Below, piece by piece: positions 3,396 through 46,299 of a DNA stretch of 64,000 nt. The notes below the pieces were generated by a model. The model did no database searches and was not told the origin of the DNA. It saw only the letters and a list, made by a program, of their open reading frames with translations. Within the stretch, counting starts at the first letter, position 1, and every line of letters begins with the position of its first letter. A program made the position numbers and the translations under genes. The stretch spans positions 1-64,000 of the forward strand of contig JAGXSU010000008.1 in NCBI GenBank assembly GCA_018333785.1, given 5' to 3'. Source of the DNA: Methylomicrobium sp. (GTDB taxonomy: Bacteria; Pseudomonadota; Gammaproteobacteria; Methylococcales; Methylomonadaceae).

Positions 3396-3439
3396 GGTTT
3401 TTTTCCGATTGGGTGGGTGTGCCGCTACCTTGAATTCGC

Positions 3440-4351
3440 TCAAGTAATTAAAGAACCACCTTGACGTCCTAAAACGTCAGTCCAAAGGTACGGCAAGCCC
3501 AGTTTTTCAAGCCAATCCGGGCCTTGTTCCGATTTAAGCATGGCAATGGTCGAGGCGCTACCCGCAATGACGCAATGTTCACTGATCACGGTTACCGAAG
3601 TCAAGTGCTGGACAGGCCAGCCTGTTTTGGGATTGAGAACATGGCTATAACGCTTGCCTTCAATGACAATGCAGCGTTCGTAATCGCCGCTACTGGCAAT
3701 CGCTCCTTGATGTAAGGCAAGGCTTTTCAATAAGGCCTGCCTATTGCGTGGATGAGCAATTCCTACACGCCACGGCTCGTTGTCAGGTCGAGGTCCAATG
3801 ATTTTGACATCTCCACCGAGATTGACGAGGCCATGCCTGCCTCCGGCTTGTCGGCAGAGTGTCACAACGCGATCGGCTGCGTATTCTTTGACGATACCTC
3901 CAAAATCGAGCTCCATACCCGGCGATGAAAAAACCAGATCAGGTGGCGACCAATTCACTTTATCCCAGCCGATCCGCTCCAATAGAGAAGTAATCATTTC
4001 CGGCTCGGGTAAGCGGGTCTGCTCAAAACGCCAGGCTTTACGCAAAATCCCTGAGCTGATATCAAACAAACCGCCGCTTTGGAGGTAACAAGCGTTAGCG
4101 TACTCGATCAGTCCGGCTGTTTCAGTGTCCAGTGTAATTCGGCCGCCATTATATGCAACCCGGTTAATGTCAGACAACAAGCTGTCTTCGCGGTAGCGTG
4201 AATATTTTTGCTCCAGGCGCTGTACGTCAGCGATAGCCAATTCGGCTATTTTCCGGGCAGAGTTGCTGTCGGTAGTAAATAACTGAATCTGACAAGGCGA
4301 GCCCATTGCTTTAAAGTTGAAATTAAAATGCTGCAGCTTTTTGGAGTTCAA
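3440..4351 (-). CDS. apbE: FAD:protein FMN transferase (ApbE family)
   Basis: The 303-residue protein matches ApbE flavin transferases, which attach FMN through a phosphoester bond to Thr/Ser of target proteins in the cell envelope. Visible family blocks are SRYREDSLLSDIN (about 50-63), the flavin-site signature DFGGIVKEYAADRV (149-162), VNLGGDV (176-182) and HVLNPKTG (237-244). Two oddities stand out. There is no signal peptide or lipobox, whereas many ApbE proteins are exported. The C-terminal AD-x-x-x-T block that supplies metal ligands reads AGSAST, so the usual Asp appears to be Gly. Either this is a divergent subfamily or catalysis is altered. DUF3570, DUF4266 and TlpA-like genes lie within 7 kb and often travel with ApbE in proteobacteria. 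Confidence 0.88.
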   Translation of the reverse strand: MNSKKLQHFNFNFKAMGSPCQIQLFTTDSNSARKIAELAIADVQRLEQKYSRYREDSLLSDINRVAYNGGRITLDTETAGLIEYANACYLQSGGLFDISSGILRKAWRFEQTRLPEPEMITSLLERIGWDKVNWSPPDLVFSSPGMELDFGGIVKEYAADRVVTLCRQAGGRHGLVNLGGDVKIIGPRPDNEPWRVGIAHPRNRQALLKSLALHQGAIASSGDYERCIVIEGKRYSHVLNPKTGWPVQHLTSVTVISEHCVIAGSASTIAMLKSEQGPDWLEKLGLPYLWTDVLGRQGGSLIT

Positions 4352-4702
4352 GGTGTGAAATTGAGCAATAGATTTTGAAATTCGAGTTGCATGAAATCAG
4401 GTAGGGTTTTTCAAAAAGAGTAAGTCAATACGGTATGGATATCAAGAGCTCAAGGTGGTGTTCTATTAGAAATTCCTGTCCCGGCAAAGGCAGGAGTGCT
4501 ATCCGAGGCGCGCTTAAATAAAGCTAATTAATTAAACTATGTTATTTAAAATAATTAAACTATGTCATATAAAGCAAAATATAAATTTCAATGTTCTAGT
4601 CTCAGGTTTTCGAACTTGTGCCTGTGTATTGTCTTAGTGATTAAGGGTCGTTAAGAGGCTTTAATAGGGGTCTTGATACTATTTTTGGATGAATGGATTT
4701 AT
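4352..4702. other. AT-rich intergenic region without a gene
   Basis: This stretch between the divergent apbE and second PEP-CTERM gene holds no plausible coding sequence. Near 4530-4575 there is an imperfect tandem duplication of an AATTAAACTATGTTAT-type unit. The 4475-4505 part carries a short GC-rich palindrome-like segment. I see no convincing riboswitch here. Confidence 0.5.
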
Positions 4703-4782: not shown

Positions 4783-5499
4783 ATGAAAATAAAAGAATTT
4801 GCAGTAGCAACTATTTTAGGGTTGTCGATGGGATCGGCTCAGGCGAATTTGTTAGAGTTTAATGGTACTTATGAAAGTGATGAGGATTTAGATCTTTATC
4901 ATTTTGATCTGTTGAGTGATGGACAGGTAAAAATATGGAGTGACACTTTAACTAATGGGTTGGACTCAAAGCTTACACTGTTCAAGAAAAACCAGGATAC
5001 CGGTGCTTATGAATGGAAATCCGGAATTGGAGGCTATGAAATACTGAATGCAAGGGAAGACCGGAATGCTAATGGAGTAACTTTATCAGGTGTCAATGAA
5101 TTCAATGTACCCCTGAAAAATGGTTGGGTGTTAAATGATCCGGATAAACTGGGCCTATCAGATGCAGGTGGTCTCCTCAATCTCACAATAGGATCTTATT
5201 TACTGGTCCACACCGGTTTTTTCGATATGTTTGTAGGTGAGGCTGAAGGACGCGACGGTACTTTTGACGAAGGCTTTGTAGACATGTGGTCTGATTTTGG
5301 TTTTGAAGAGTCCAATTCTCGCTGGAGTACTTTCGAATTTCGCACCAGTGATGCGCCGCATGCCTACAATGTATTTGTGGATGGCGATGTAGCTGCTGTG
5401 TCGGCTGTGCCTGTCCCCGGCGCGGTCTGGTTGATGGGTTCTGCTATTGCGGGTTTGACAATGGCTGCGCGTAGAAAAAAAGCGGCCATTGCGGCTTGA
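4783..5499 (+). CDS. Exported PEP-CTERM protein, DVUA0089-like pre-peptidase fold
   Basis: The 238-residue protein has a signal peptide (1-21, ending SAQA). Its N-terminal half resembles the DVUA0089/PPC-like beta-sandwich seen in secreted surface proteins (DLDLYHFDLLSDGQVKIWSDT, SKLTLF). The C-terminal sorting tail (209-238) reads VPVPGAVWL, a hydrophobic helix, then AARRKK. A GGAG ribosome site precedes the ATG. A sigma-54-type promoter lies upstream, as for the first PEP-CTERM gene, which hints at shared control. The next gene follows after 49 nt on the same strand. The function is unknown; surface or extracellular matrix placement is inferred from the sorting tail. Confidence 0.82.
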   Translation: MKIKEFAVATILGLSMGSAQANLLEFNGTYESDEDLDLYHFDLLSDGQVKIWSDTLTNGLDSKLTLFKKNQDTGAYEWKSGIGGYEILNAREDRNANGVTLSGVNEFNVPLKNGWVLNDPDKLGLSDAGGLLNLTIGSYLLVHTGFFDMFVGEAEGRDGTFDEGFVDMWSDFGFEESNSRWSTFEFRTSDAPHAYNVFVDGDVAAVSAVPVPGAVWLMGSAIAGLTMAARRKKAAIAA

Positions 5500-8167: not shown

Positions 8168-8380
8168 ATGAACAAATGTGTACTGCTCATGCTGAGCCTG
8201 ACTCTCTTATCGTTATCCGGTTGCGCCGTAGCACCCTGGGAGCGGGGCATTCTTGCCAAGGCACAGATGGCGCTAGAGCCTCATCCGTCCCAAACCGAGT
8301 ATCGCGGACATACTTATGGCAGCCGTGAGGCTGCTAGTGGCAGTAGTTCCGGTGCGGGAGGCGGTTGTGGTTGTTACTAA
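8168..8380 (+). CDS. DUF4266-type small lipoprotein
   Basis: The 70-residue product has a lipoprotein signal (lipobox LSGC, Cys19). The short body begins APWERGILAKAQMA, and the Gly/Ser-rich tail ends GGGCGCY. This is the signature of DUF4266 proteins, which are normally encoded directly before a DUF3570 gene, as here. The C-terminal Cys pair suggests metal or disulfide chemistry at the membrane surface, but no function is established. The upstream intergenic stretch (7900-8167) carries no other gene I can support. Confidence 0.85.
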   Translation: MNKCVLLMLSLTLLSLSGCAVAPWERGILAKAQMALEPHPSQTEYRGHTYGSREAASGSSSGAGGGCGCY

Positions 8381-11282
8381 AACCCGCTTGAATCAAGTTG
8401 TCCGGTCACTGCTACGACCATCTTCTCGAGCCGCCGGTTTATCGGACAGAAATTTTTGTGACGCGTTGGCGTCTCGAAAGATCGATCTGCAATATGCGGT
8501 CGACAGGCCGACTATCAAGCGGGTTAATTCCAAAATAAAAGCACATCGTCCAAGCGCTTCGTCAGGCAGTCTGATCAGTCCCGCACTGCAAGCATTGACT
8601 ACCGCAGCATTAATGCTGCCCGGAGTTATGCCGGTGCAGGCTGCCGATGATGAGGTGACGATACAGTATGGGCATTATGAAGAATCCAGCCGGGATACAT
8701 TTGGACGTGTGCCGATAGGTGAAACTCCTCTTGGCAACACCGTTTTTGGCGAGCAAAAGCTACCCAGTAATTATACGCCTATAACAGTTGATACTATCCA
8801 CGCACAGTTCAAGACCACGATGCTTGATCGCTGGAAATTTACAGCCAATTATACGGAAGACACTTGGTCAGGTGCGACGCCCATTGCGACCGCTCCTGCG
8901 GGTTTTGGTGCTAACTTTGCATTTGAGCGTGATGGAGCGGATCACGTTGATGTTAATTCTGTAGGCCAAACCGTATCAGGTGCGTCTCCGCGACTGAAGG
9001 ATGGCATTTTCCCGGTCTTCGACAGCCAGTTAAATCCGGTTTTTAATGCGGGTGTTAATGATGATACTTTTGAACCTGTTTACCAAAAAGGCTCTCAAAA
9101 ACTGGCACACACAATGACCATGGCTTCTCCCGAAACCCGAAAACAAGGTGATTTCAGTTTGGGTTATGAATGGGACGAAGCGGCTGTCAATGTCGGTGGG
9201 GGTATATCCATAGAGAGTGATTATGAGTCTCGGTTTGTCAATTGGGGCGGGCGGCTGGATTTCAATAATAAATTAACAACGCTAAATTTTAACCAGAGTT
9301 ATACCAATAGCACTATCTCGGCTACGCTGGATCATGATTCTTTACCCTATCTCAGTACGGCCGGTTATGCGCTTAATGGTCGTAGCGACAACGGCTATGT
9401 CGAAGATGTGGGTGGGCCTGTTGTTGACGGGATAGGTGTTAACAAGAAACTCAGAGGGCTACGCGAGGATATTGCCACTAACTTCAGCCTAACTCAGGTG
9501 CTGACTAAAAGTGCTTTGATGGAGGCGGGTGTGGGATACACCCATAGCAGTGGCTTTATGGAAAATCCGTATAAAGCCACCTATGCGTTTTATGTCGATC
9601 CGGATGGCTTTGATGCTGTAAACAATGTATTTACCACTATCAGTACAACTGCATTCAGCGAGGAGCGACCCGACAAGCGGAATCAGATCAATCTCAATCT
9701 GCGCTATGTTCAGTATGTCGAGCCGCTGGATGCGGCGATGAACCTGAAGTACAACTATTTTATCGATGACTGGGGGATCAATGCCCATACCTTCGAAGGC
9801 AAATGGGTGCAGCCATTACCCTGGGGGCTAACCGTCACGCCTACTATTCGTTATTACAGTCAGAGTGCCGCCGATTTTTATCATCCGTTTTTGGCGCTGA
9901 GAGCTGCCGGTGATGGCACTATAAGTAATAGTGTCAACCCGGGCGCAGGTGAGCAAAACGACTATCGCATTTTGAAGCAAAACTATGCGCATTTCTCCAG
10001 CGATCATAGGCTTTCCGCATACGGTGCTTTGAGCGGTGGTGTTGTAGTGAGCAAACAATTTGCGCGTGGTCTGAGCCTGGAAATGGGTTTTGAATATTAT
10101 ACGCATCAAGGTGATTTGCGCCTTGGCGGTGGAGGGGAAGCCGATTTTGCTGATTTTTCGGCCTACTCGGCAAATGCCGCGCTTAAAGTGGACTTGGCTA
10201 CATTAGGTCGCGGCTTAGCCTACGGTAACGATTCTGCTCATCACCACCACCATCATCATCATCACGGCCCGCAACAACCTGCCGGGCTCATGTTCGGGCA
10301 TATGCTGGAAAAAGCCGGCGACTGGATGATCGGTTACAATTATATGTACAGTCGGCAGGCCGGAGACTTGTTAAAAGGTACCCGATCTATCGCCGATAGT
10401 GAGGTCATACTTAACAATACGGCCAATAACCCCAACTGCGCCGATTCTAAATGCTATGTTGCGCCTTCCGATATGACCATGCACATGCACATGTTTATGG
10501 TGATGTATGCACCTACCGACTGGATGAATCTGATGCTGATGCCAACTTTCATGGACATGAGCATGAACATGCGCAGTCTTGAAGGCGCTGATCCCTGTCC
10601 ATCGGGAACGTCAGGCATTGTCGGTGCGGCCTGCCAACATACCAATCATGAACATCAAACCGGCGGCATAGGCGACACCAATATTTCCGCCCAGTTCAAG
10701 CTTTACGGCGATCAAATCAATCATTTACATTTGACCTTAGGCGTATCGGCGCCTACCGGTGATGTAGGCATTAAGCTGAGACCGAATCATGGCTATGAAC
10801 TGGGTTTTATTCATTACGGTATGCAGTTGGGCAGCGGTACCTGGGATTTTACTCCGAGTCTGACTTATACCGGCCATTACGATAATTGGGGGTGGGGCGC
10901 GCAGGTGCAAGGCATCAAGCGTTTGGAGAGCCAAAATGAATCAGGCTATGCGCTGGGCGACATGTTTCAGACCACTGCATGGGGCAGTTACCAGATCCTA
11001 GAGTGGTTGGGAGGAACCGTAAGAGGTATTTACACCAGTCAGGGCGCTTTGCAGAACGAATATAACGGCCACCATGTGCCTGTAGGTACTATGGACGAAC
11101 CTGCTAACCATGGAGGACGTTTTTGGGACATAGGCCTGGGCCTCACCGCGACGATACCCAAAGGCGACCTCGCCGGTAATTCGGTTAGTGTGGAATGGAT
11201 TCAACCGGTACAGGACGATGTTAACGGAATTCAGATAGAACGAGAAGGCGCGCTGGCAGCCAAGTGGAGTTATATGTTTTAG
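8316..11282 (+). CDS. DUF3570 outer-membrane-type protein fused to a His/Met-rich second barrel domain
   Basis: The frame is 988 residues from the first ATG, which overlaps the DUF4266 gene by 65 bp. The first 80 residues look non-native. The signal peptide appears only at about 84-108 (ALQALTTAALMLPG...VQA), so a non-ATG start after 8380 (for example a TTG) is likely. Residues about 109-640 fit the DUF3570 family (beta-rich, probable outer-membrane barrel). A run of nine His follows near 643-651. The region about 655-988 begins HMLEKAGDWMIGYNYMYSR, is very rich in Met and His (MTMHMHMFMVMY, MDMSMNMRS), and resembles MetA/phenol-transporter-like barrels. The His/Met content suggests copper or other metal handling, as inference. 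Partners are DUF4266, TlpA and ApbE. Confidence 0.8.
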   Translation: MAAVRLLVAVVPVREAVVVVTKTRLNQVVRSLLRPSSRAAGLSDRNFCDALASRKIDLQYAVDRPTIKRVNSKIKAHRPSASSGSLISPALQALTTAALMLPGVMPVQAADDEVTIQYGHYEESSRDTFGRVPIGETPLGNTVFGEQKLPSNYTPITVDTIHAQFKTTMLDRWKFTANYTEDTWSGATPIATAPAGFGANFAFERDGADHVDVNSVGQTVSGASPRLKDGIFPVFDSQLNPVFNAGVNDDTFEPVYQKGSQKLAHTMTMASPETRKQGDFSLGYEWDEAAVNVGGGISIESDYESRFVNWGGRLDFNNKLTTLNFNQSYTNSTISATLDHDSLPYLSTAGYALNGRSDNGYVEDVGGPVVDGIGVNKKLRGLREDIATNFSLTQVLTKSALMEAGVGYTHSSGFMENPYKATYAFYVDPDGFDAVNNVFTTISTTAFSEERPDKRNQINLNLRYVQYVEPLDAAMNLKYNYFIDDWGINAHTFEGKWVQPLPWGLTVTPTIRYYSQSAADFYHPFLALRAAGDGTISNSVNPGAGEQNDYRILKQNYAHFSSDHRLSAYGALSGGVVVSKQFARGLSLEMGFEYYTHQGDLRLGGGGEADFADFSAYSANAALKVDLATLGRGLAYGNDSAHHHHHHHHHGPQQPAGLMFGHMLEKAGDWMIGYNYMYSRQAGDLLKGTRSIADSEVILNNTANNPNCADSKCYVAPSDMTMHMHMFMVMYAPTDWMNLMLMPTFMDMSMNMRSLEGADPCPSGTSGIVGAACQHTNHEHQTGGIGDTNISAQFKLYGDQINHLHLTLGVSAPTGDVGIKLRPNHGYELGFIHYGMQLGSGTWDFTPSLTYTGHYDNWGWGAQVQGIKRLESQNESGYALGDMFQTTAWGSYQILEWLGGTVRGIYTSQGALQNEYNGHHVPVGTMDEPANHGGRFWDIGLGLTATIPKGDLAGNSVSVEWIQPVQDDVNGIQIEREGALAAKWSYMF

Positions 11283-26176: not shown

Positions 26177-26791
26177 ATGATTGCGCTGCTCTATTTTGTT
26201 TTCTTTTTTTTAATTTATTTGCCTATTTCCATTTGGGTGATTCGTAAAAGTTATTGCTTTGCGAAAGCCAAATATCAGCACGGCTGGGTAGGCGGAATAG
26301 TTGCGGCGTTAATCATGTATAACCTGGTGTTTTGGGATTGGATACCGGTGATCTTAATTCATAAACACCTTTGCGAAACTGAAGGCGGCTTTTGGGTTTA
26401 TAAAACGCCGGAGCAGTGGGTAAAAGAGCATCCTGAAGTCTTGGGTCAGGATTGGGGGGATTCAACTAAAACCAAATGGGAGAATATTCGAAAAGATTAT
26501 GGAAATGAACGGTGGAGGGTATGGTACGGGCCACATATGTACATTGAGTATGGACATAAAAATAAAATAGATTTTACAGATACGATTAGTCAATACGAGA
26601 CAAAAGCCGTAGATGGCAAAACAGGTGAAATTTTATTTATAAGTAAAAACTTTTTTAAAGGTGCACAAATTAAATTGTGGTTAGCTGAGCCAAGCCGAAG
26701 TGAAGGGCCAGGGTGCGGTGAATCTGAACATAGTGGATTTGTAAAAGAGCATAATAAATTAATGTTGTTGGTTAAAGGAGATATTAAATGA
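26177..26791 (+). CDS. Small membrane protein coupled to RTX lipase gene
   Basis: The 204-residue protein has two predicted membrane helices (about 3-22 and 36-58) and a C-terminal domain rich in Trp/Lys/Tyr (TPEQWVKEHPEVL, ERWRVWYGPHMYIEYG) with a Cys-containing segment near 175. No family is recognised. Its TGA overlaps the ATG of the giant RTX protein (ATGA at 26788-26791), so the two are translationally coupled and probably act together. Possible roles are an immunity or anchoring protein against the lipase, or a secretion accessory; both are inference. Confidence 0.7.
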   Translation: MIALLYFVFFFLIYLPISIWVIRKSYCFAKAKYQHGWVGGIVAALIMYNLVFWDWIPVILIHKHLCETEGGFWVYKTPEQWVKEHPEVLGQDWGDSTKTKWENIRKDYGNERWRVWYGPHMYIEYGHKNKIDFTDTISQYETKAVDGKTGEILFISKNFFKGAQIKLWLAEPSRSEGPGCGESEHSGFVKEHNKLMLLVKGDIK

Positions 26792-29700
26792 ACACTAATA
26801 TCAAATATGTTGCAGATATGGCAGCCCTTGCCGAGGCCAGTTACGCAGGACTTGACCGATTTAACAGTAATCAAAATGGTCTTAAGTCTGCCATTATCAG
26901 TAATGGATTCTCCGTAACCCAGGCAGACGATTTCATACAACACTGGTCAGTTATTCCCGGCAGCCACCAAGCCAATATGCCTAGCGGTTTTTCCGCGACT
27001 TTATTCAAAGGCATTGGCCAAGGTGATTTATCTGGTGAGTATGTATTGGCAATCCGGGGCACGGAAGAGCCTGATGTTGATCTTGCCGGTGCCGATGGAG
27101 GCGATATATTTTTGGATGGACTCGCAGTCGACCAAATTATTGATCTCTACAATTACACCCAAAAATTGACCCACACGGGTTCCTATCAAGCCGCCAAATT
27201 GACCAAATTGGATGGCATAGACGGAGCGCGAGGGCCCATCGATGTGCTTTATGCCAAAACTCATCGCTTGTTATTTCTTGACGGTGCTGAGAGAGGTATT
27301 TATCGGATTGACTTTGAACAACGCAATGATGGTAGCGGTCTGTTGCCTTCTGGTGCGCAAGTTCATGTCACCGGGCATAGCTTGGGCGGGCATTTGGCGG
27401 CGGCATTTTCGCGAATGTTTCCCAGCTTGACGCTTGATGCAACAATGATCAATGGCGCTGGTTTCGCGGATGGCTTTGCCCCCTTTACCGACACCTTTAT
27501 ACCTAATTTCAACGTCGATCACTTCTTCAGTATGATCGGCGGGGCCAGCCAATTCGATACCACTAAAATTACCAATTACATTGGATCGGCTGCAATGGAT
27601 TTTGTTGCCCAAGATTGGTTCATTGCTTTGGAACAGCCAGGCCAAATCGAACACGTTACGACGGAAAGTTTCAGTCTTTCCAATACCGTTGGACATGGTG
27701 CCGGGCAGATGACGAACACGCTGGCGATTATGGCTCTATTTGGACAGTTGAGTCAGGCAGGTTCGTTATCGTTTGCGGAAATAAACAGCTTGATGGAGAA
27801 ATCGTCTAATGTCAAAACGGAAACATTCGAGCAATTGGTCAATGGCTTATCCCGGCTATTCGGCATTTCTGAAATTGCCGATCTTAACTTAGACACCACA
27901 ACCGATGGACGCGAGGCGTTGTTTACCAACATCGTTGCCATTCAGAATTCTAATGGTTTTAAAAGTTTAATGGGTAGAGTCAGCATAGTGGCTCCTGCTG
28001 CAACGGCCAGCGAGGCCCGTAGCGATTTTGGTGCGTTTTTAAGCTTGGTTTATTTGACTCCATTTGCTTTAAAACCTGAGGGTAGTGAAGCAAAGGTTTA
28101 TCTGCAGACCGCACATCTTAACAATACCGAGTTGGCTTTAAAGTGGGAGGAAGATAATGATCTGACACCTGAACAAATCGCCAATGGTCAGGGGCATTAT
28201 TCGGATAGGTGGTTAAATGATCGGGCCCATATGCTCGCACAATTAATGCTTCGTAATGCGGCCGATTCGGTCACGGTTGTTGGCCGTGGACAAAATGAAA
28301 CCTATCAAGATATTGCCGCAGGTTTTCTATTTTCTACCTCTGATGTTTCTTACTTCGGGCCTGGACTGCCTCTAGATAGCCGACGTTATATTTTTGATGA
28401 TGATAACGATAATTCAGCTATTCATGGTGGAAGCCAGAATGATCGTTTATATGGCGGCGGCGGAAACGACAGTCTGCTCGGTAATGCTGGAGATGACTAT
28501 CTTGAAGGCGGCACCGGTGACGATATTCTCGAAGGTGGACAAGGCAATGACCGGCTTATCGGAGGTCAAGGTCACGACACCTATATTTACCATTCCGGAG
28601 ACGGTTTCGATACGATTGAAGATAGCGACGGCCTGGGAAGTATCATCGTTAAAGATGTCACACTTGACCTTACCGGCGGCAAAAAAATCGGCACCGATGT
28701 CTGGGAGTCGTCGGACCAAAATATTTTAGTGATTTTGGGTGCACCTGATCAGAATGGACAGCGGAACTTATATATCAACGGCAGCATTTTTGAAGGCGGC
28801 CGTATCATGATCAAAAATTTCCACGATGGTGATCTTGGCTTGACACTACCCCCTTTTTTAGAAGAACCGACCTCGTCGCCCGCCACTCTATTTCTGGGTG
28901 ATTCGCAGCCGGGCCAACCCGATAAGCTCATCGGTACTTTTGGGGATGATTATATGGTTGGCGGGGTGGATCGCGATATTTTGGAGGGCTGGAATGGTGA
29001 TGATGTCCTGTTTGCCGATCAGGCTGTGGATTTAAAAATGGTAACTGATTATCGTGATTTTGGCGGTGAAACAGCAAATGGACAGTACGGTGATTTTTTG
29101 TCGGCGGGTTCCGGTAATGACATTCTGATCGGGAGTACGCACAGTGATGCATTAATGGGCGGTGAAGGAGATGACCTTATTCTCGGCGGAGCTGGTCACG
29201 ACCTTATCTATGGTGATGCCAGCTACAGGACGTCTGATCCTGACTGGACTTACAAAGGTTTACCGGAAATGTACCAAGCCGCTGATTCATCTTACCCGGG
29301 ATGGAATAATGAAACGGGTTTAAGTCCGGTCATGGGATTATTCGATACTGGAGTAGGTGGGCGGGATGTGATTTACGGAGGTAGCGGAGGGGATTTGATC
29401 CTGGCCGGTCAAGGCGATGATATCGTATACGGCGAGAGCGGCGTGGATTCGATCGACGGCGGAGCCGGCCACGATATACTCTTTGGCGGCGAGGATGACG
29501 ACAGCATTAACGGCGACATAGGTACCGGCAGTTTGAATCAACACGGCAACGACTATATCGATCTGGGTTCCGGCATCATTCAGCAATACGCCAGAGGTAA
29601 CGGCGGCAACGACATCATCCTGGGCGGCGATACCGACGACACGCTGGAAGGCGACGATCTCAGGGGACTTGATGTGCCGGCCGTCTATCACGGGTCTGAC

Positions 29701-32700
29701 TTCATCGACGGCAAAGGCGGCAATGATACCATTTGGGGTCATGGCGGTGACGACACTATCTATGGCGGCGAGGGTGATGACTATATTGAGGGGGATGCAG
29801 GAACTGAATTTATCGCAGCGGAATACCAGGGTAATGATCACCTGTATGGAGAAGCGGGTCATGACACAGTATTAGGTGGGGGCGGTGATGATGTAATTTA
29901 TGGCGGCAGTGGCAATGATTTACTCATAGGTGATGGCAGTCATATAGATTCCGTTGCTCATGGTCATGATTTTATTGATGGCGGGGAGGGTAACGACGAA
30001 TTAAAAGGTGGCGGTGGTACGGATTATTTAGATGGCGGCAGTGGCGATGATAAGCTTTTTGGAGACGCCGGTGACGACATCCTCATCGGGGGCAGCGGCA
30101 CCAATTATCTGGATGGCGGTGAAGGAGAAGATACCTACAGAGTAGGTCAGGGACACGATGTTATAACTGATGCTGATACCAATAACCGGATTGTACTGAA
30201 TGAATCTACTCAATTACAGGCTATTTCATTAGCAACCGATGGAGCAGATCAGCAAGATCTATTGCTGATTTTTGCCAATGGTGCCCGAGTCAGCATAGCT
30301 CAAGGTTTTTTGGGCACCGTCAATTCATTTTTGGTTGACGGTGCAGAAAGAAATTTAAGCGATCTTTTATCTGTCTACGCGAACCAGAATCTTGCTTTAA
30401 CCGGCACCGGTGCAGCTGAACATATTGCAAGTGGCGCCGGAAACGATTTTATTAACGGTAATGCCGGTGATGATTGGCTTGACGGCGGTCGTGGAAATGA
30501 TGTTTTACAAGGTGGGGCAGGCTCAGATACTCTGCGCGGCGGAGAAGGAGCCGATGTGCTTGTTGGCGGGAGTGGCAGTGATGTTTACCGGTTTGATAGG
30601 GGTGATGGCGCAGATGTGATAAATGCAGCTAATGCCAGTGATTCAGCCGGTGACGTGGTTTATTTCGGCAAAGGTATTGAGGTCAGTGACTTAGGATTAT
30701 TTCAGTTGGCTAACGGAAGTCTCCTTTTGCGGATCGGAGACGGTCAAGATAGCATTTTGTTCGATGGCTGGTTTAATGAAGGCCCCAATGTGTCAGCTTT
30801 GCATTTTTATGATGATACACAGTTGCTTGCCTCTGAAATGACGATGTCAGCAGTCGATGTCTATGGGGGCACGGCAAACAATGATCGTTTGGTCGGTACT
30901 GAAGCGGATGATCGACTCGAGGGCTATGCCGGGAATGATGTTTTGTCCGGAGGAGCAGGCAATGATATTTTGGTCGGTGGTGCCGGCAATGACAGTTATC
31001 TCTTTGGCTGGGGAGCGCTTGGCAACGACGTGGCGGTGGAGTCGTCTGATGGTTCAAGCATTATCGCCTTGACAGATGGAACAAGCTTGAGAGATTTGAA
31101 GTACTCACGGATATCCAATAATTTGGTGATGTCACTAAAAGGTGGCGCATCAACCTTAACGCTAACAGACTATTTCTCCTCTACGCATCTGTGGACAATA
31201 CTTGATGAATCCGGTGTTTCAACGGGGGTTGCCGATTGGGTCACCTTGCCGCAAGCAACGGTGGATCTTGATCAAGTCAAGGCTGATTTTGTCGATACGG
31301 CCCTTGCCCAATGGTCGAGTGAATTACTGAGTAATGCCACATTCAATTATCTTCGTGTTGACGGTTCAAACTACCGCTCATCAATTGTGAGCGTTGATTC
31401 AACGATTATCCGCACAGAGCAATTTAAACAGATCGAATTTACCAGCGACGCGGCCGATATTCAACGCAGCTCGGAAAATAAAACGTACTCCAGCAACAGC
31501 GTCAATATCATTGGCACTTCTTCAATAGTTAAAGACAATAATTCCTCTGTGGGGCTGCGCTTTGTTAACATCAAAGACTGGACTGGTTTGTTAAATGAGT
31601 TGCGGATGGATGATGTCAATACCAGTCTTGATGCGGCAATGCCTGTTTTCAGCGGCTTCAATATTTTAGGTGGTTTTTTGATCGGTGCCAGCCCTTCGGC
31701 AATGACTCAATACTGGCAAACCAATCAAACCATTACTACTCAGGTTGAATTGATCCAAGGTGGTAACAGTGACAATACGATTAGAGGCTACCGGTATTAC
31801 GGGGACAACAGTATCTCAATGATCGATGGGGGTGGCGGTAACGACACTCTTTATGCGTCCGGCAGGCCAGGCCTCAATAACGAAACAACCTATCTTACCG
31901 ATAATGATACCTTTATCGGTGGTTTTGTTTATGGCAATTCCGGCAATGATAGCCTTTATGGTGGCTATTATCGGGATACTTTGGTGGGAGGTGAGGGAAA
32001 TGATTTTCTGGATGGCGGGTTTAGCCAAGATACCTATGTCGTATTTGCGGACGAGTCCGGCATCGATACAATCTGGGATACAGGAACTCAATTAAGACAA
32101 TCCATTGGTTATCGATTGGGATTTAACACACCCGGCTTAGTGCTTGAAGGTGGTCAGCAAATCTTCTCTTCGCCTGTTGATGAGCCTCAAACAATTCCTG
32201 AGGATACCTTACGTTTGATAGCCATTAATCCAAGTGCCTTAACTTTTTCCTGGGGGGAACGAGTGGTAGAGGGTATCCGCAATAACGGAACACTTGGATC
32301 AACCGGCACTCTGCTTAGAGGCGGCAATGCAGTCAGTAATCAGTCTGTTCATGCGGTGCTCTCTTTATTATGGGCGGGAGGTGGTGTCGATATAGTCTTG
32401 CCGAATTCTACCGATTTATCCGGCATGGGCTTGGAACGTATTGAATTTGGGGACGGAACAGTGATGACAATGGCAGAGTTGATCGAACTGGCAAAGCCGA
32501 CCGTCGCACTTAACCCGCAGGATGAGGATAATATTCTTTATGGGCTTTATGACAGCAACACAGTATACGGTGAGGCTGGCAATGACCAATTATACGGTGG
32601 TATCGGCAATGATTTTCTGAGTGGCGGCTCGGGCGATGATGCGCTTTATGGGGGAGACGGTCATGATGAATTAAACGGCGGTGCCGGTACGGATATCATG

Positions 32701-34386
32701 GCTGGTGGAGCAGGAAACGATTCCTATGTCTTTGGCAAAGGTTCAGGCCAGGATTGGGTCAATAGTTACGATACGACTGCTGGCAAAATTGATACTGTAA
32801 AGTTTGATTGGACAATACTACCTGATGATGTCCAGGTTCACCGGAATGGCAAAAATCTTGAGTTGTCTATTAAGGGTTCATCGGATTCGCTTACTATCTT
32901 TAACTACCTGGAAAATGACGGCATCACGCCTTACTCGGTTGAACGGATCAGCTTTTTTAATGGGACGGTTTGGGATTTGGCCGTGGTTAAATCCAAGCTC
33001 ATCAGTAACCGCCCACCGGAATTGTCTACAGCACTTTCGGATCAGCAGGTTTTTGAAAGTGAGGATTTCGTATTCACCATCGACAACAATGCCTTCAATG
33101 ATCCTGATGACGGTGATGCGCTGGCTTACTCTTCCGGACTGGCCGATGGCAGCGATTTGCCGCATTGGTTGGTCTTTGATGCTGAAACACTGACTTTCAG
33201 CGGTATTGCTGATAAAACTGGGACAATCAGCGTCAGAGTCACTGCGAAAGACAAGGGAAACTTGGGTGTCTCGGATATTTTTGACCTTACTGTTGCCCCA
33301 ATGCCTGGCTTGATTATCACTGGCAGTTCGGTTGCTGATAATCTGATAGGCGGGCGGGGTGATGATGTGTTTAATGGTTTGGCTGGCAACGATAAGTTGT
33401 ATGGAAATGCAGGTAATGATCTTTTAAACGGCGGAAGAGGTCATGATGTCATGGCAGGTGGAATCGGCGATGATATTTACATCATAGACAGCGCTGGAGA
33501 TACTGTTATCGAAAATGCAGATGAAGGAATTGATAGAGTAGAGTCCAGTATTACTTACAAACTCAGCTCCCATGTCGAGCAGTTACAATTGACAGGGAAT
33601 AACGCTATCAACGCGACCGGAAATGAGTTAGATAATCTGTTGATGGGTAATGATGCTGCAAATATTCTAAATGGCGGTTCCGGAACAGATACCTTGATAG
33701 GTGGGCGCGGCAATGACACTTACAGTGTGGATAACGCGAGTGATACCGTTATTGAATACTTTAATGAGGGCATTGATCTTGTCCAGTCCTCAGTATCCTT
33801 CATCTTGACCGATCATATTGAGAATCTGACGCTGACAGGAAATGCACCAATTGACGGTATAGGAAATGAACTCAATAACGTATTAAGGGGTAATATCCGT
33901 AATAACAAACTGATAGGTGGAGCTGGAAACGATATACTTTATGGGGGACGAGGTAATGATTTGCTTGATGGCGGCACCGGTGATGATTACCTGAACGGTG
34001 GAACTGGCTCGGACAGGTATTTATTCGGTCGAGGGTCGGGTAAGGATATTATTGATAACTATGATACGTCTGCCAATAGCACGGACACACTGTCATTTGG
34101 AAATGACATAAAGGTTGATCAACTTTGGTTTAAAAAAGCGGGCCGTCACCTTGAAGTCAGCATTATCGGCAGTAACGACAAGGTTACTATTCATAATTGG
34201 TATTCAAGTAAGGCTTTTCAGGTTGATCAATTTAGGACTGCTGACAAGCAAACCTTGTTAAGCAGTCAGGTTGATGCGTTGGTATCGGCTATGGCTGCGT
34301 TTGCACCCCCCGTAGCGGGCGAAACTGTGCTGCCTCCGGATTACCAAACTCAATTGACTCCCGTGATTGCCGCCAACTGGCAATAA
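26788..34386 (+). CDS. Giant RTX protein with N-terminal lipase-like domain
   Basis: The 2532-residue protein has no signal peptide, as expected for type I secretion. Residues 1-350 form an alpha/beta-hydrolase of lipase class 3 type: VLAIRGTEE, then the nucleophile elbow GHSLGGH with Ser198. Many calcium-binding RTX nonapeptides (GGxGxDxLxG) occur in blocks near 545-600, 720-1140, 1215-1265, 1365-1410, 1695-1760, 1915-1985, 2185-2310 and 2385-2420. A cadherin/putative-Ig-like domain lies near 2074-2172 (PPELSTALSDQQVFESEDF). Segments such as FGRGSGKDIIDNYD are of the haemolysin-related domain type. It probably acts as a secreted or surface lipase/phospholipase. No hlyBD-type secretion genes are in the window. 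Confidence 0.9.
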   Translation: MNTNIKYVADMAALAEASYAGLDRFNSNQNGLKSAIISNGFSVTQADDFIQHWSVIPGSHQANMPSGFSATLFKGIGQGDLSGEYVLAIRGTEEPDVDLAGADGGDIFLDGLAVDQIIDLYNYTQKLTHTGSYQAAKLTKLDGIDGARGPIDVLYAKTHRLLFLDGAERGIYRIDFEQRNDGSGLLPSGAQVHVTGHSLGGHLAAAFSRMFPSLTLDATMINGAGFADGFAPFTDTFIPNFNVDHFFSMIGGASQFDTTKITNYIGSAAMDFVAQDWFIALEQPGQIEHVTTESFSLSNTVGHGAGQMTNTLAIMALFGQLSQAGSLSFAEINSLMEKSSNVKTETFEQLVNGLSRLFGISEIADLNLDTTTDGREALFTNIVAIQNSNGFKSLMGRVSIVAPAATASEARSDFGAFLSLVYLTPFALKPEGSEAKVYLQTAHLNNTELALKWEEDNDLTPEQIANGQGHYSDRWLNDRAHMLAQLMLRNAADSVTVVGRGQNETYQDIAAGFLFSTSDVSYFGPGLPLDSRRYIFDDDNDNSAIHGGSQNDRLYGGGGNDSLLGNAGDDYLEGGTGDDILEGGQGNDRLIGGQGHDTYIYHSGDGFDTIEDSDGLGSIIVKDVTLDLTGGKKIGTDVWESSDQNILVILGAPDQNGQRNLYINGSIFEGGRIMIKNFHDGDLGLTLPPFLEEPTSSPATLFLGDSQPGQPDKLIGTFGDDYMVGGVDRDILEGWNGDDVLFADQAVDLKMVTDYRDFGGETANGQYGDFLSAGSGNDILIGSTHSDALMGGEGDDLILGGAGHDLIYGDASYRTSDPDWTYKGLPEMYQAADSSYPGWNNETGLSPVMGLFDTGVGGRDVIYGGSGGDLILAGQGDDIVYGESGVDSIDGGAGHDILFGGEDDDSINGDIGTGSLNQHGNDYIDLGSGIIQQYARGNGGNDIILGGDTDDTLEGDDLRGLDVPAVYHGSDFIDGKGGNDTIWGHGGDDTIYGGEGDDYIEGDAGTEFIAAEYQGNDHLYGEAGHDTVLGGGGDDVIYGGSGNDLLIGDGSHIDSVAHGHDFIDGGEGNDELKGGGGTDYLDGGSGDDKLFGDAGDDILIGGSGTNYLDGGEGEDTYRVGQGHDVITDADTNNRIVLNESTQLQAISLATDGADQQDLLLIFANGARVSIAQGFLGTVNSFLVDGAERNLSDLLSVYANQNLALTGTGAAEHIASGAGNDFINGNAGDDWLDGGRGNDVLQGGAGSDTLRGGEGADVLVGGSGSDVYRFDRGDGADVINAANASDSAGDVVYFGKGIEVSDLGLFQLANGSLLLRIGDGQDSILFDGWFNEGPNVSALHFYDDTQLLASEMTMSAVDVYGGTANNDRLVGTEADDRLEGYAGNDVLSGGAGNDILVGGAGNDSYLFGWGALGNDVAVESSDGSSIIALTDGTSLRDLKYSRISNNLVMSLKGGASTLTLTDYFSSTHLWTILDESGVSTGVADWVTLPQATVDLDQVKADFVDTALAQWSSELLSNATFNYLRVDGSNYRSSIVSVDSTIIRTEQFKQIEFTSDAADIQRSSENKTYSSNSVNIIGTSSIVKDNNSSVGLRFVNIKDWTGLLNELRMDDVNTSLDAAMPVFSGFNILGGFLIGASPSAMTQYWQTNQTITTQVELIQGGNSDNTIRGYRYYGDNSISMIDGGGGNDTLYASGRPGLNNETTYLTDNDTFIGGFVYGNSGNDSLYGGYYRDTLVGGEGNDFLDGGFSQDTYVVFADESGIDTIWDTGTQLRQSIGYRLGFNTPGLVLEGGQQIFSSPVDEPQTIPEDTLRLIAINPSALTFSWGERVVEGIRNNGTLGSTGTLLRGGNAVSNQSVHAVLSLLWAGGGVDIVLPNSTDLSGMGLERIEFGDGTVMTMAELIELAKPTVALNPQDEDNILYGLYDSNTVYGEAGNDQLYGGIGNDFLSGGSGDDALYGGDGHDELNGGAGTDIMAGGAGNDSYVFGKGSGQDWVNSYDTTAGKIDTVKFDWTILPDDVQVHRNGKNLELSIKGSSDSLTIFNYLENDGITPYSVERISFFNGTVWDLAVVKSKLISNRPPELSTALSDQQVFESEDFVFTIDNNAFNDPDDGDALAYSSGLADGSDLPHWLVFDAETLTFSGIADKTGTISVRVTAKDKGNLGVSDIFDLTVAPMPGLIITGSSVADNLIGGRGDDVFNGLAGNDKLYGNAGNDLLNGGRGHDVMAGGIGDDIYIIDSAGDTVIENADEGIDRVESSITYKLSSHVEQLQLTGNNAINATGNELDNLLMGNDAANILNGGSGTDTLIGGRGNDTYSVDNASDTVIEYFNEGIDLVQSSVSFILTDHIENLTLTGNAPIDGIGNELNNVLRGNIRNNKLIGGAGNDILYGGRGNDLLDGGTGDDYLNGGTGSDRYLFGRGSGKDIIDNYDTSANSTDTLSFGNDIKVDQLWFKKAGRHLEVSIIGSNDKVTIHNWYSSKAFQVDQFRTADKQTLLSSQVDALVSAMAAFAPPVAGETVLPPDYQTQLTPVIAANWQ

Positions 34387-43368: not shown

Positions 43369-44454
43369 TTAATTCGCACTTTCACCATTAACAGCTTGAT
43401 AGCCTTTTTTTGCCAAGTGGGGAATCAATAACTTAAGCGGCATCTTGAGCCAATGTGAGCGGATGAATAATAGCCAACGAGCCAAGCCGGTCCAGATATC
43501 CTCGCAACTGGAATGCTCAGGCATTAATACTCTTAGAAACAAAAAATCCATCAATTTAAGCTTAATTCTGTTTGGAGTGTAGGGCGCAATGCCTTTTAAT
43601 GCGTCTTCTGATAAGGGTGTTGCCAGGATGATCGATGCGTATCGTAAAGCATAAACCAGGGGTATTTGTTGTTTTAGTTCAATAGACCGATTGACCAATT
43701 GAGTCCAAAAGTTCTCCTGGCTTGAGAATTGGCGCAGAAGTAAATCGATATCGGAAATATCTCTCAACCCGTGTTTAAATTCACTTTCATGAAACAAGTG
43801 GGTGGCACTATGCAATAGTCTGTCTTCAGGCGCTAAAACCCAAAACGGCGAGTTTTCAATCTTGACAATATTGGCGAATAGTTTTTTGGGGTTGGGGCAC
43901 GTTTTGCAGGTTGTCGGCAAAATGTTGTGGTGAACATCCAAGGTCGTCTGTCTTTTCAAATGGATCATTGGCGGCAGTTCATGCATCCATTCCCGATAAT
44001 AGCGTTGGTCGTAATCATTTTGATGAGTTCCTACCCACAAATGTTTTTTTAACGCGCTTTCCACTGCTGATAAATCATTTTGATTGACCAAGATGTCAAC
44101 ATCCGAAAAAAGCCGACCCTTCTCCGCATGATCTGATGCAAGTACATAGGCAGATCCTTTTAGGAAAATTACCGGGATAGCCAATTCTGCCAGAGCTTTA
44201 TCAATACAGCGAAATTCCCATTGCAGTGAATGATTCAGTTTGTTCGAGTAGGCTGTGGCTGAAATAAAATGATTTTTGATGTTATCAGCCAGATTATCGA
44301 TTAAGCCGTTCTCTTGCAGCACTAGATAAAGCCGGACTAAAAGCATTGATTGTCTGGCCTGACGAATCAATAAATCCCAGTCCTTAGGTGTATACGCGCA
44401 AACGGACGAGGGGTTTTTAAGAACTTGGGCGACACGGTTTTTTGTTAAATCCAT
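43369..44454 (-). CDS. Nucleotidyltransferase-fold protein of HPr-kinase-related modification operon (PF14907 type)
   Basis: The protein is 361 residues from the ATG at 44454, 4 nt after the kinase stop; the frame extends further upstream but would overlap the kinase. Family signs are FLKGSAY (about 97-103), LFSDVDILV with the metal-binding Asp pair D118/D120, HELPPMIHLKRQTTLDVHHNI and LLHSATHLFH. This is the uncharacterised nucleotidyltransferase family also found beside HPr-kinase-like enzymes in some lasso-peptide clusters, where it is thought to act in peptide tailoring. Here it is last of four co-oriented, tightly packed genes. The substrate is most simply the exported protein encoded first in the operon, as inference. 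Confidence 0.8.
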   Translation of the reverse strand: MDLTKNRVAQVLKNPSSVCAYTPKDWDLLIRQARQSMLLVRLYLVLQENGLIDNLADNIKNHFISATAYSNKLNHSLQWEFRCIDKALAELAIPVIFLKGSAYVLASDHAEKGRLFSDVDILVNQNDLSAVESALKKHLWVGTHQNDYDQRYYREWMHELPPMIHLKRQTTLDVHHNILPTTCKTCPNPKKLFANIVKIENSPFWVLAPEDRLLHSATHLFHESEFKHGLRDISDIDLLLRQFSSQENFWTQLVNRSIELKQQIPLVYALRYASIILATPLSEDALKGIAPYTPNRIKLKLMDFLFLRVLMPEHSSCEDIWTGLARWLLFIRSHWLKMPLKLLIPHLAKKGYQAVNGESAN

Positions 44455-44458
44455 AATT

Positions 44459-45316
44459 TCAAGAAACCAGGTTGTCCAAAGACAGGATTGCTTCTTCCAA
44501 TCGGCTGTAACGCAAATCATAGCAACCGCTAGTTTCCACCAATTGGCTTAGAGCATTGAATCCGGTAAGAGCAAGCACGTTGTAATTAAACGATAACTTG
44601 GCGAGTTCCATAAAGGAAAGACCCTTTGTTTTATCATTTAACAGGCATTCGGAATCTGCTTGATATTGGGGAAAGACAACCCAAAGCGGAGTTGCCGGAA
44701 TATCCACTTTATCAATGCTTTCATTCGGTGCTTTGACATGGGTTACCGAGCCTTTGACGGTATCATGCACCACATTTCCGAAGACGGCTTCAGGAGCAAA
44801 TTCCTGAATGACCTTGATGGATTCATTTTTAAGGCAAACCGGTCTTGCTAGGGGTGAAATTAAACCGGTAGATAAAGAGAGCAGCGTAAGTTCATCAGAC
44901 AGCAATCGCCAGCCACTATGAACAAGGGCAGCGCATAAAGTGCTTTTTCCAGCACCGGGTTGGCCGGGCAATACTAAAGCCTTATCGTTTTTGGCAACGA
45001 CTGCGGCATGAATGATGAGGTATTGGTGACAATGTTGACTGATACACCAGTTCAATCCCCATTCAAACATCGGAAAAGCTTGGTCAAGCGGTAACGGTTT
45101 GAACGGTTTTTTGCCGTCAAAAAAGAATACCACCTGAGGTTTTAACCAGCGGCGTATTGTTTGTGGAGTTGAAAGCTTGATATGGAAGTCGTAAAAATCG
45201 TCTTGATAGTCAGTGATCATGCCTGGATAGAGTAATTCCAGGCTGGTAATGACGGAGGATAATGACGTGCTTAGACAGGAATGGAAGGGACCTGTTTTGA
45301 CGGAATAAGTTTTCAC
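44459..45316 (-). CDS. HprK-related kinase A
   Basis: The 285-residue protein is related to the catalytic domain of HPr kinase/phosphorylase. It has Walker A GQPGAGKST (118-126), the preceding HAAVVAK strand (103-109), and LLSDELTLL (138-146), which fits the Asp/Glu of that fold. The N-terminal 100 residues differ from HprK and carry FFFDGKKPFKPLPLDQAFP, typical of the HprK-related A group. No PTS HPr gene is nearby. It is flanked by a PqqD-like gene (17 nt upstream) and the nucleotidyltransferase. In paeninodin-type lasso clusters a related kinase phosphorylates a Ser of the precursor, so it may phosphorylate the exported protein of this operon; this is inference. Confidence 0.85.
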   Translation of the reverse strand: MKTYSVKTGPFHSCLSTSLSSVITSLELLYPGMITDYQDDFYDFHIKLSTPQTIRRWLKPQVVFFFDGKKPFKPLPLDQAFPMFEWGLNWCISQHCHQYLIIHAAVVAKNDKALVLPGQPGAGKSTLCAALVHSGWRLLSDELTLLSLSTGLISPLARPVCLKNESIKVIQEFAPEAVFGNVVHDTVKGSVTHVKAPNESIDKVDIPATPLWVVFPQYQADSECLLNDKTKGLSFMELAKLSFNYNVLALTGFNALSQLVETSGCYDLRYSRLEEAILSLDNLVS

Positions 45317-45333
45317 GCTAACGAGTTAATTTC

Positions 45334-45630
45334 TCATTCATTAGACTGCACTTCGACCACGTCAATTTGTAAAAGGCTGTTTACAAAATTAATCATAGCT
45401 AAAGAACAATCACTATCGTTTGGAAAGAGATTCTCGCGGATAGCCGATTCAGTTAACTCATCAAGAGTCAACGAAGCATACTTTAGCTTCTCAAGAATCC
45501 AGTCAACCGGTTTAGCGAGCAAATGAGTATCTTGAGTCAATTGGTTAAATAGCACGATTTCATGTTCCCAAACATTTACGCTAAATTCTGATTCAGGAAC
45601 CAATGACCATTTGTCTTTGGACTTAAACAT
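45334..45630 (-). CDS. PqqD-family recognition protein (HPr-rel-A system)
   Basis: The protein is 98 residues from ATG 45630 (a GTG one codon earlier is the alternative). Sequence features are WEHEIVLFNQLTQDTHLLAKPVDWILEKL followed by LTLDELTESAI, the pattern of PqqD/RRE winged-helix proteins that bind leader segments of peptide or protein substrates and present them to modifying enzymes. It starts directly at the stop codon of the upstream exported-protein gene, which implies tight coupling. It probably recognises the N-terminal region of that protein and recruits the kinase and/or nucleotidyltransferase. I see no radical-SAM partner, so it is not a PQQ gene. Confidence 0.82.
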   Translation of the reverse strand: MFKSKDKWSLVPESEFSVNVWEHEIVLFNQLTQDTHLLAKPVDWILEKLKYASLTLDELTESAIRENLFPNDSDCSLAMINFVNSLLQIDVVEVQSNE

Positions 45631-45633
45631 CAC

Positions 45634-46299
45634 TTATGGGTTTCTGTTGATTGCGCAACTACTTGATGAATTAGCCGTGGAATAGGTCGTTTTTAAAGTA
45701 TTGACTGCTGTCATATTTAACGAAAAATTACTTCCATTAGTTGAAATGGTTAAAGCACCCTTAACATTATCTACTACGGTAGATAAATTATCTGGGAAAT
45801 TAATTTTTGTCGCTGTATGGCTGGCATTGAGATAAGCAGTTACAAATTGGATAAATGCGTTGGTTAAGTCGGTTTTAGCGGTATTCGTGGCATTGGCGTT
45901 TCCGTTGGTAAACACGCTATCTATGCTGATCGTTCCCATTAAGGCGGCTCCAATAGTTCCTGTTATTATTGGTCTTGGGGGGTTGTTCCCTGGCGGGGTA
46001 AAATTTGGAATGGCAAATAGGGTGCCGATGCTGTTCGTAAGAACAATGGGTATCGAACTCAATTCCGCTTGGGTCGCTTTAGTCCATTGGAGAGGAGAGC
46101 ATGCTCCACAAGTCAATTTATCAACAGGATTCGATAAGTTACCAGAAGCCAAGGCACTACCGGAACACTGCGTAGCAAAAGCCGGGCGACTCAATAAGGA
46201 TGCGATGACCGGCGTTGTGAGGCCAATTTTTGTCAGTGAGCGTCTTTTCTTATCCACGTCACCAGATTCATTTTCAGTATTCAATTCTTTATCGCTCAT
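45634..46299 (-). CDS. Exported candidate substrate protein with Tat-like leader (SGNLS-type)
   Basis: The 221-residue protein has a hydrophilic acidic start (1-16). A twin-arginine-like signal (KKRRSLTK, 17-24) leads into a moderately hydrophobic stretch, with an AFA cleavage site at 40-42. The mature start contains TQCSGSALASGNLSNP with C45, then CGAC (64-67) and W72. The rest is Thr/Ala/Asn-rich and beta-prone, with one late Cys in SSSSC. It is first in the four-gene operon with PqqD-like, HprK-like and nucleotidyltransferase proteins. The Ser-rich conserved-looking SGNLS segment just after the cleavage site is the likeliest modification target, though this is unproven. It is not a small peptide precursor and matches no enzyme I know. 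Confidence 0.75.
   Translation of the reverse strand: MSDKELNTENESGDVDKKRRSLTKIGLTTPVIASLLSRPAFATQCSGSALASGNLSNPVDKLTCGACSPLQWTKATQAELSSIPIVLTNSIGTLFAIPNFTPPGNNPPRPIITGTIGAALMGTISIDSVFTNGNANATNTAKTDLTNAFIQFVTAYLNASHTATKINFPDNLSTVVDNVKGALTISTNGSNFSLNMTAVNTLKTTYSTANSSSSCAINRNP

Follow-up and report, generated by a model that had tools for sequence, protein, structure and literature searches.

What do an HprK-related kinase, a PqqD-like protein, and a nucleotidyltransferase act on when their genes follow that of a small exported protein? This question is raised by a four-gene operon found in the 64,000-nucleotide stretch of Methylomicrobium sp. DNA analyzed here (the window). The answer that we prefer, with a probability of about 0.72, is that the operon encodes a leader-guided system for the modification of a Ser residue in one dedicated exported protein, and that this system belongs in a surface polysaccharide setting.

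Organization and distribution of the four-gene cassette

The genes for the exported protein, the PqqD-like protein, the kinase, and the nucleotidyltransferase follow each other in this order on the minus strand (Table 1), with intergenic gaps of 0, 17, and 4 nt; this arrangement, described earlier in a sequence-only reading, is confirmed by both the ORF calls and the family profiles. The kinase and the nucleotidyltransferase clearly pass the cut-offs of TIGR04352 and PF14907, respectively, and these identities can be considered secure. A longer ORF of 383 residues for the latter enzyme begins within the kinase gene. The kinase stays under the cut-offs for HPr kinase/phosphorylase (16 bits against 240 for TIGR00679 and 15.6 against 33.3 for Pfam Hpr_kinase_C), and its profile matches HPr kinases among the PDB sequences weakly (1jb1, E 0.039), while a search of the PDB sequences with the nucleotidyltransferase returned nothing significant. 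The PqqD-like protein scores under the cut-off of TIGR04353, with a relative from the same slot scoring 48.8 bits. The exported protein matched no Pfam or NCBIfam family in the profile search, and scans for promoters and terminators performed no better on the window than on shuffled sequences.

Table 1. Positions of the cassette genes and of the predicted functional segments of the exported protein in the window
Feature	Position	Strand	Basis
Exported protein, presumed substrate, 221 aa, type A	45634-46299	minus	ORF with GGAGG-type ribosome site ahead
Leader, residues 1-43, with R19 R20, hydrophobic core, and LSRPAFA; presumed Tat signal and PqqD recognition sequence	46171-46299	minus	R19/R20 invariant in 58 sequences
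Type A Ser motif, residues 45-56, CSGSALASGNLS; S48 at 46156-46158, S52 at 46144-46146	46132-46167	minus	Candidate modification site
PqqD-like protein, presumed leader-binding element, 99 aa	45334-45633	minus	TIGR04353, 24.8 bits (cut-off 35); position and family conserved
HprK-related kinase A, GTG start, 285 aa; catalytic H103, K124 (Walker A), D141, E142	44459-45316	minus	TIGR04352, 382.5 bits (cut-off 200)
PF14907 nucleotidyltransferase, 361 aa from ATG at 44454; K99 G100, R114, D118-x-D120	43369-44454	minus	Pfam, 176.8 bits (cut-off 31.2)

The flanking genes encode a nitroreductase and a ZnuD-like TonB receptor. They are outside the conserved unit, since the cassette occupies quite different places in other genomes. 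Elsewhere, the window encodes a 2532-residue protein (26788-34386) in which 14 stretches match RTX calcium-binding repeats, as well as a 988-residue protein with DUF3570, a domain of unknown function (8316-11282, 398 bits).

Kinase loci were gathered from relatives of the source organism, from its class and phylum, and from named GTDB genomes (at least 581 confirmed GTDB stretches, with 80 kept); the culturable relatives Methylobacter marinus and Thiobacillus thioparus are among the carriers of the cassette. In 171 of the 178 loci with enough upstream sequence, the leader profile recognizes an exported protein that shares the leader of the window protein and is encoded directly upstream of the kinase; the other seven have none in this position. 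A profile built from the same-slot PqqD homologues finds a PqqD-like gene in 171 of 182 kinase loci, and a PF14907 nucleotidyltransferase is located nearby in 167 of 179. In the other 12 (about 7%, for example L065, L124, and L185) this enzyme was not detected nearby, so it would not be essential everywhere; 10 of these 12 loci keep the leader protein and the kinase. The kinase itself is present in 61 of the 398 genomes of the phylum sample. Recurrence of the full arrangement at well over 100 other loci excludes its origin by chance, and the four-gene set is widely distributed rather than peculiar to the window. The comparison of neighborhoods suggested in the earlier reading as a check turned out in its favor, with the kinase, the PqqD-like protein, and the exported protein in fixed linkage.

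Several loci show additional features. In one of them (L288), the kinase is in two pieces and the nucleotidyltransferase is split, with transposase-like ORFs nearby and the leader protein intact. In 37 loci, among them L063, L069, L072, L075, and L103, an HtrA-like trypsin-type serine protease of about 250-285 residues is encoded near the cassette, often directly upstream, and might possibly be a processing enzyme. Apparent fusions of the kinase with the nucleotidyltransferase in L103, L104, and L107 are not claimed here, as the sequences in L103 and L107 are out-of-frame artefacts of high G+C content.

Leaders, Ser motifs, and catalytic residues

The 174 exported proteins examined all fit one of two types, A (122 proteins, including the one encoded in the window) or B (52 proteins). 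The leaders of both types have in common the motif RR-(R/K)-(L/F)-x-K, followed by P-(V/A)-(I/V) and then by (T/S)-(L/V)-x-S. In the window protein, the leader includes the sequence KRRSLTK and an AFA site resembling those cut by signal peptidase, and thus has, at the sequence level, the features of a Tat signal; one relative of this protein matches TIGR01409, and the source genome encodes TatC (241 bits). When 61 genomes of relatives were searched with the substrate profile, matches covering the leader region were present only in genomes that have the kinase, with 19 of 20 adjoining the kinase gene and the remaining one located on a separate contig fragment, and there were none in the 37 genomes without a kinase above the cut-off. 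Four more matches to this profile, in other proteins, span the C-terminal body alone, from about position 69 of the profile. Two of them, in L278 (1109-2017) and L280 (498-1391), share with type A the C-terminal body domain of the GYW type but have neither the leader nor the Ser motif. The body domain thus occurs outside the cassettes, and it is the leader that accompanies the enzymes. A conserved leader separable from a variable body, with the bodies differing between types A and B, is the arrangement expected of RRE-dependent RiPPs in the wide sense. We saw no PEP-CTERM signal in these exported proteins.

In type A, the motif C-x2-3-S-x3-S-G-N-x-S is placed right after the signal sequence, and the columns of S48 and S52, like those of R19 and R20, are invariant in the alignment of 58 members. 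In the larger set, S48 is conserved in 117 of 118 proteins and S52 in 118 of 119, values that are partly due to construction, as Ser is part of the pattern by which type A was sorted. Since two or three Ser residues are conserved in type A, the acceptor in this type is ambiguous. In type B, the motif C-x-x-S-[FIL] is found near the C terminus, with Ser present in all 51 motifs and Cys in 47 of the 51. Two minimal precursors of type B, L100 (74 residues) and L245 (82 residues), consist of little besides the leader and the motif, suggesting that the motif is the part that is acted on.

The AlphaFold model of the exported protein from the window has a modest mean pLDDT of 68.8. In the model of a type A relative (L145), a confidently predicted helical part spans residues 76-209, whereas the leader and the Ser motif are predicted with low confidence, and the stretch carrying the motif is presumably disordered. 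Fold searches with the latter model gave no meaningful match, with the best Foldseek hit at E 1.6 and the best VIA hit, a designed helical protein, at Z 4.0; these results do not show that the fold is new.

The type of the exported protein co-segregates with the kinase. In the tree of 168 kinases, the split between types A and B requires a single change, compared to 43.6 expected in shuffles, with none of the 500 shuffles reaching this value. The branch that divides the types has low support (22), so that in this tree the two substrate types are not intermixed, without each of them being thereby a proven clade. Descent of the species would not by itself account for the split, since the bacterial family to which the window belongs includes both types. 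The catalytic residues H103, K124, D141, and E142 of the kinase are conserved in 168 of 168 sequences, as are K99, G100, R114, D118, and D120 of the nucleotidyltransferase in 170 of 170; judged by these residues, the active sites of both enzymes are intact. Residue 143 of the kinase, located beside D141 and E142, is mostly Leu or Met in type A and Phe in type B.

Association with a polysaccharide amidotransferase

The cassette had been regarded as a stand-alone system, a view that is probably wrong. TIGR03108, an Asn-synthetase-like polysaccharide amidotransferase homologous to the lasso cyclases, is encoded in 24 of 24 kinase genomes compared to 6 of 37 others among the 61 relatives, and in 58 of 61 kinase genomes compared to 10 of 337 others in the phylum sample of 398 genomes (Fisher p 3e-55, a value not corrected for phylogeny). 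Its gene lies within 6 kb of the kinase on the same contig in only 22 of the 58 pairs, so that linkage does not fully account for the co-occurrence. In the source genome, TIGR03108 is found away from the cassette, on contig C106, where its neighbors are polysaccharide genes of the XrtA type that encode TIGR03019, TIGR03006, a TviB-like dehydrogenase, and glycosyltransferases TIGR03087 and TIGR03088. This co-occurrence with an XrtA/PEP-CTERM-type exopolysaccharide locus (TIGR03108, TIGR03019, TIGR03006) speaks for a probable link between the cassette and a polysaccharide pathway, although, unlike in the XrtA/PEP-CTERM systems, its exported proteins have no visible PEP-CTERM signal. Exosortase was also considered as a partner and fits less well than TIGR03108, as it is above the cut-off in 22 of 24 kinase genomes and in 16 of 37 others; it was not found in kinase genomes G010 and G017, the latter also the source of L288.

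In Porphyromonas, the enzyme WbpS is responsible for the synthesis of a uronamide linking sugar, which forms an amide bond with secreted proteins; relatives of WbpS from PEP-CTERM loci match TIGR03108 (PMC7468200). In a cell-surface polysaccharide cluster of Sphingomonas, an exosortase-associated amidotransferase was represented by 12 transposon insertions (PMC11340318). It can be tentatively imagined, although we consider it rather unlikely, that the exported protein serves as an anchor or carrier of a uronamide-type surface polysaccharide, with a Ser-phosphate attachment point built in the cytoplasm and the glycan joined to it after export. Such an attachment would correspond, with phosphate as the link, to the sugar linkage known for the cargo of type IX secretion.

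Proposed modification and its relation to known systems

The kinase is a clear member of the HPr-rel-A system of NCBIfam, which consists of the TIGR04352 kinase and the TIGR04353 PqqD family peptide chaperone, whereas the PqqD-like protein is a relative below the cut-off and the exported protein is covered by no model. The names given by NCBI show that curators had seen the kinase and PqqD together, so that this association had already been named. Our literature search found no publication on the substrate or chemistry of HPr-rel-A. The present analysis adds the putative substrate, two motifs as its candidate targets, and the connection with TIGR03108.

The closest parallels are found among the enzymes that tailor lasso peptides. 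In the biosynthesis of pseudomycoidin, the C-terminal Ser is phosphorylated by PsmK, and the presence of one or two hexoses on the phospho-Ser is due to PsmN, which carries a nucleotidyltransferase annotation, with true nucleotidylation not excluded; the lasso kinases are reported to need a His-Lys-Asp-Asp set (PMC9266682). Like the cassette kinase in the reading preferred here, PsmK and the kinases PadeK, ThcoK, and SyanK act on a leader-bearing precursor, and PsmK is likewise paired with an annotated nucleotidyltransferase. They share with the cassette kinase the His-Lys-Asp-acidic catalytic set, in which the second acidic residue is Glu here and Asp there. The acceptor Ser is C-terminal in the lasso peptides and would be near the C terminus in type B, whereas the Ser motif of type A adjoins the leader. 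In contrast to lasso precursors, most substrates of the cassette would be complete exported proteins with a twin-Arg leader and a length of about 130-320 residues. Neither the leader peptidase B2 nor the Asn-synthetase-like cyclase C is encoded in the operon or by its immediate neighbors, which sets it apart from the loci for lasso biosynthesis; gene calls and profile searches bear out the absence of both enzymes, postulated previously, for the window as a whole. The cassette is a real, widespread, and largely undescribed variant of a module comprising a kinase, a nucleotidyltransferase, and a leader binder.

The analogy with PsmK and PsmN suggests an order of steps. The PqqD-like protein would bind the twin-Arg leader and present the precursor to the HprK-like kinase for phosphorylation of a Ser in a short unstructured motif, either that with S48 and S52 close to the leader in type A or the Ser of C-x-x-S-[FIL] in type B. 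The nucleotidyltransferase might then attach a second group to this phosphate, as PsmN is reported to do. The modified protein would leave the cell by the Tat pathway, with the leader removed by signal peptidase, and would work alongside the surface polysaccharide whose locus encodes TIGR03108. The sequence-only reading had proposed that the exported protein is phosphorylated or nucleotidylated, and of these its phosphorylation, on a Ser residue, is likely.

HprK proper has a regulatory role with HPr as its target, and the polysaccharide genes with which the cassette co-occurs are a setting where regulatory kinases are common, so the kinase might be aimed at some other housekeeping or polysaccharide-regulatory protein, with the exported protein being its partner or sensor. 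We consider this unlikely, as no other neighbor is linked to the kinase as tightly as the exported protein (171/178), whose type follows the kinase phylogeny; in addition, the conserved Ser is located in an unstructured stretch or near the C terminus, also in the two minimal precursors, and a PqqD partner suits a leader-bearing substrate. Somewhat less probable is an order in which the nucleotidyltransferase acts first or alone, by AMPylation or UMPylation of Ser, with a small molecule or the nucleotidyl group as the target of the kinase. The D-x-D site of PF14907 is intact, the chemistry is not established, and the review of the work on PsmN leaves true nucleotidylation open; however, phosphorylation comes first in the lasso systems (PMC9266682), and the 10 loci that keep the leader protein and the kinase are among the 12 of 179 without a detected nucleotidyltransferase.

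The presence of Cys two or three residues ahead of the conserved Ser in most proteins of both types could also mean that phospho-Ser is an intermediate, eliminated to dehydroalanine to which the neighboring Cys adds, with the second enzyme assisting in the formation of a lanthionine-like thioether. This pathway is ranked lowest, as very improbable, because Cys is dispensable in type B, being absent from 4 of the 51 motifs from which Ser is never missing. The cassette also has no gene for a lyase or cyclase, and the nucleotidyltransferase retains the residues for nucleotidyl transfer.

If leader-guided modification of Ser is indeed the function of the cassette, enzymes of the RiPP type would not be limited to peptides but would modify whole exported proteins in a sizeable fraction of proteobacteria, and a likely substrate and acceptor Ser would be named for a kinase family that had none. 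The two substrate types would provide built-in classes for work on specificity, and the tie to surface polysaccharide may bear on how biofilm polysaccharide stays on the cells.

A second, divergent system is present in the source genome on contig C169 (L109, 679-6009), where a PqqD-kinase fusion (3379-4638; 121.7 bits for TIGR04352 and 21.7 bits for PF05402, both below cut-off) adjoins a PF14907 nucleotidyltransferase (2256-3482) and is accompanied by a 112-residue Tat-type protein with PTP/ASPTPDAP repeats (4783-5121). Short Tat-type proteins adjoining PqqD-kinase fusions and PF14907 genes are also found in L283 (5012-5284) and L284 (2850-3065), with nearly identical leaders (RRxFLKKAGKFAVYTPPAxMxLM). 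Judging by their predicted proteins, these loci repeat the theme of the cassette with different putative substrates, and we count the combination of a fusion, a nucleotidyltransferase, and a short Tat-type protein in L109, L283, and L284 in favor of the modification of the exported protein. L109 also encodes a 2OG-oxygenase/fucosyltransferase-like protein and a sulfotransferase.
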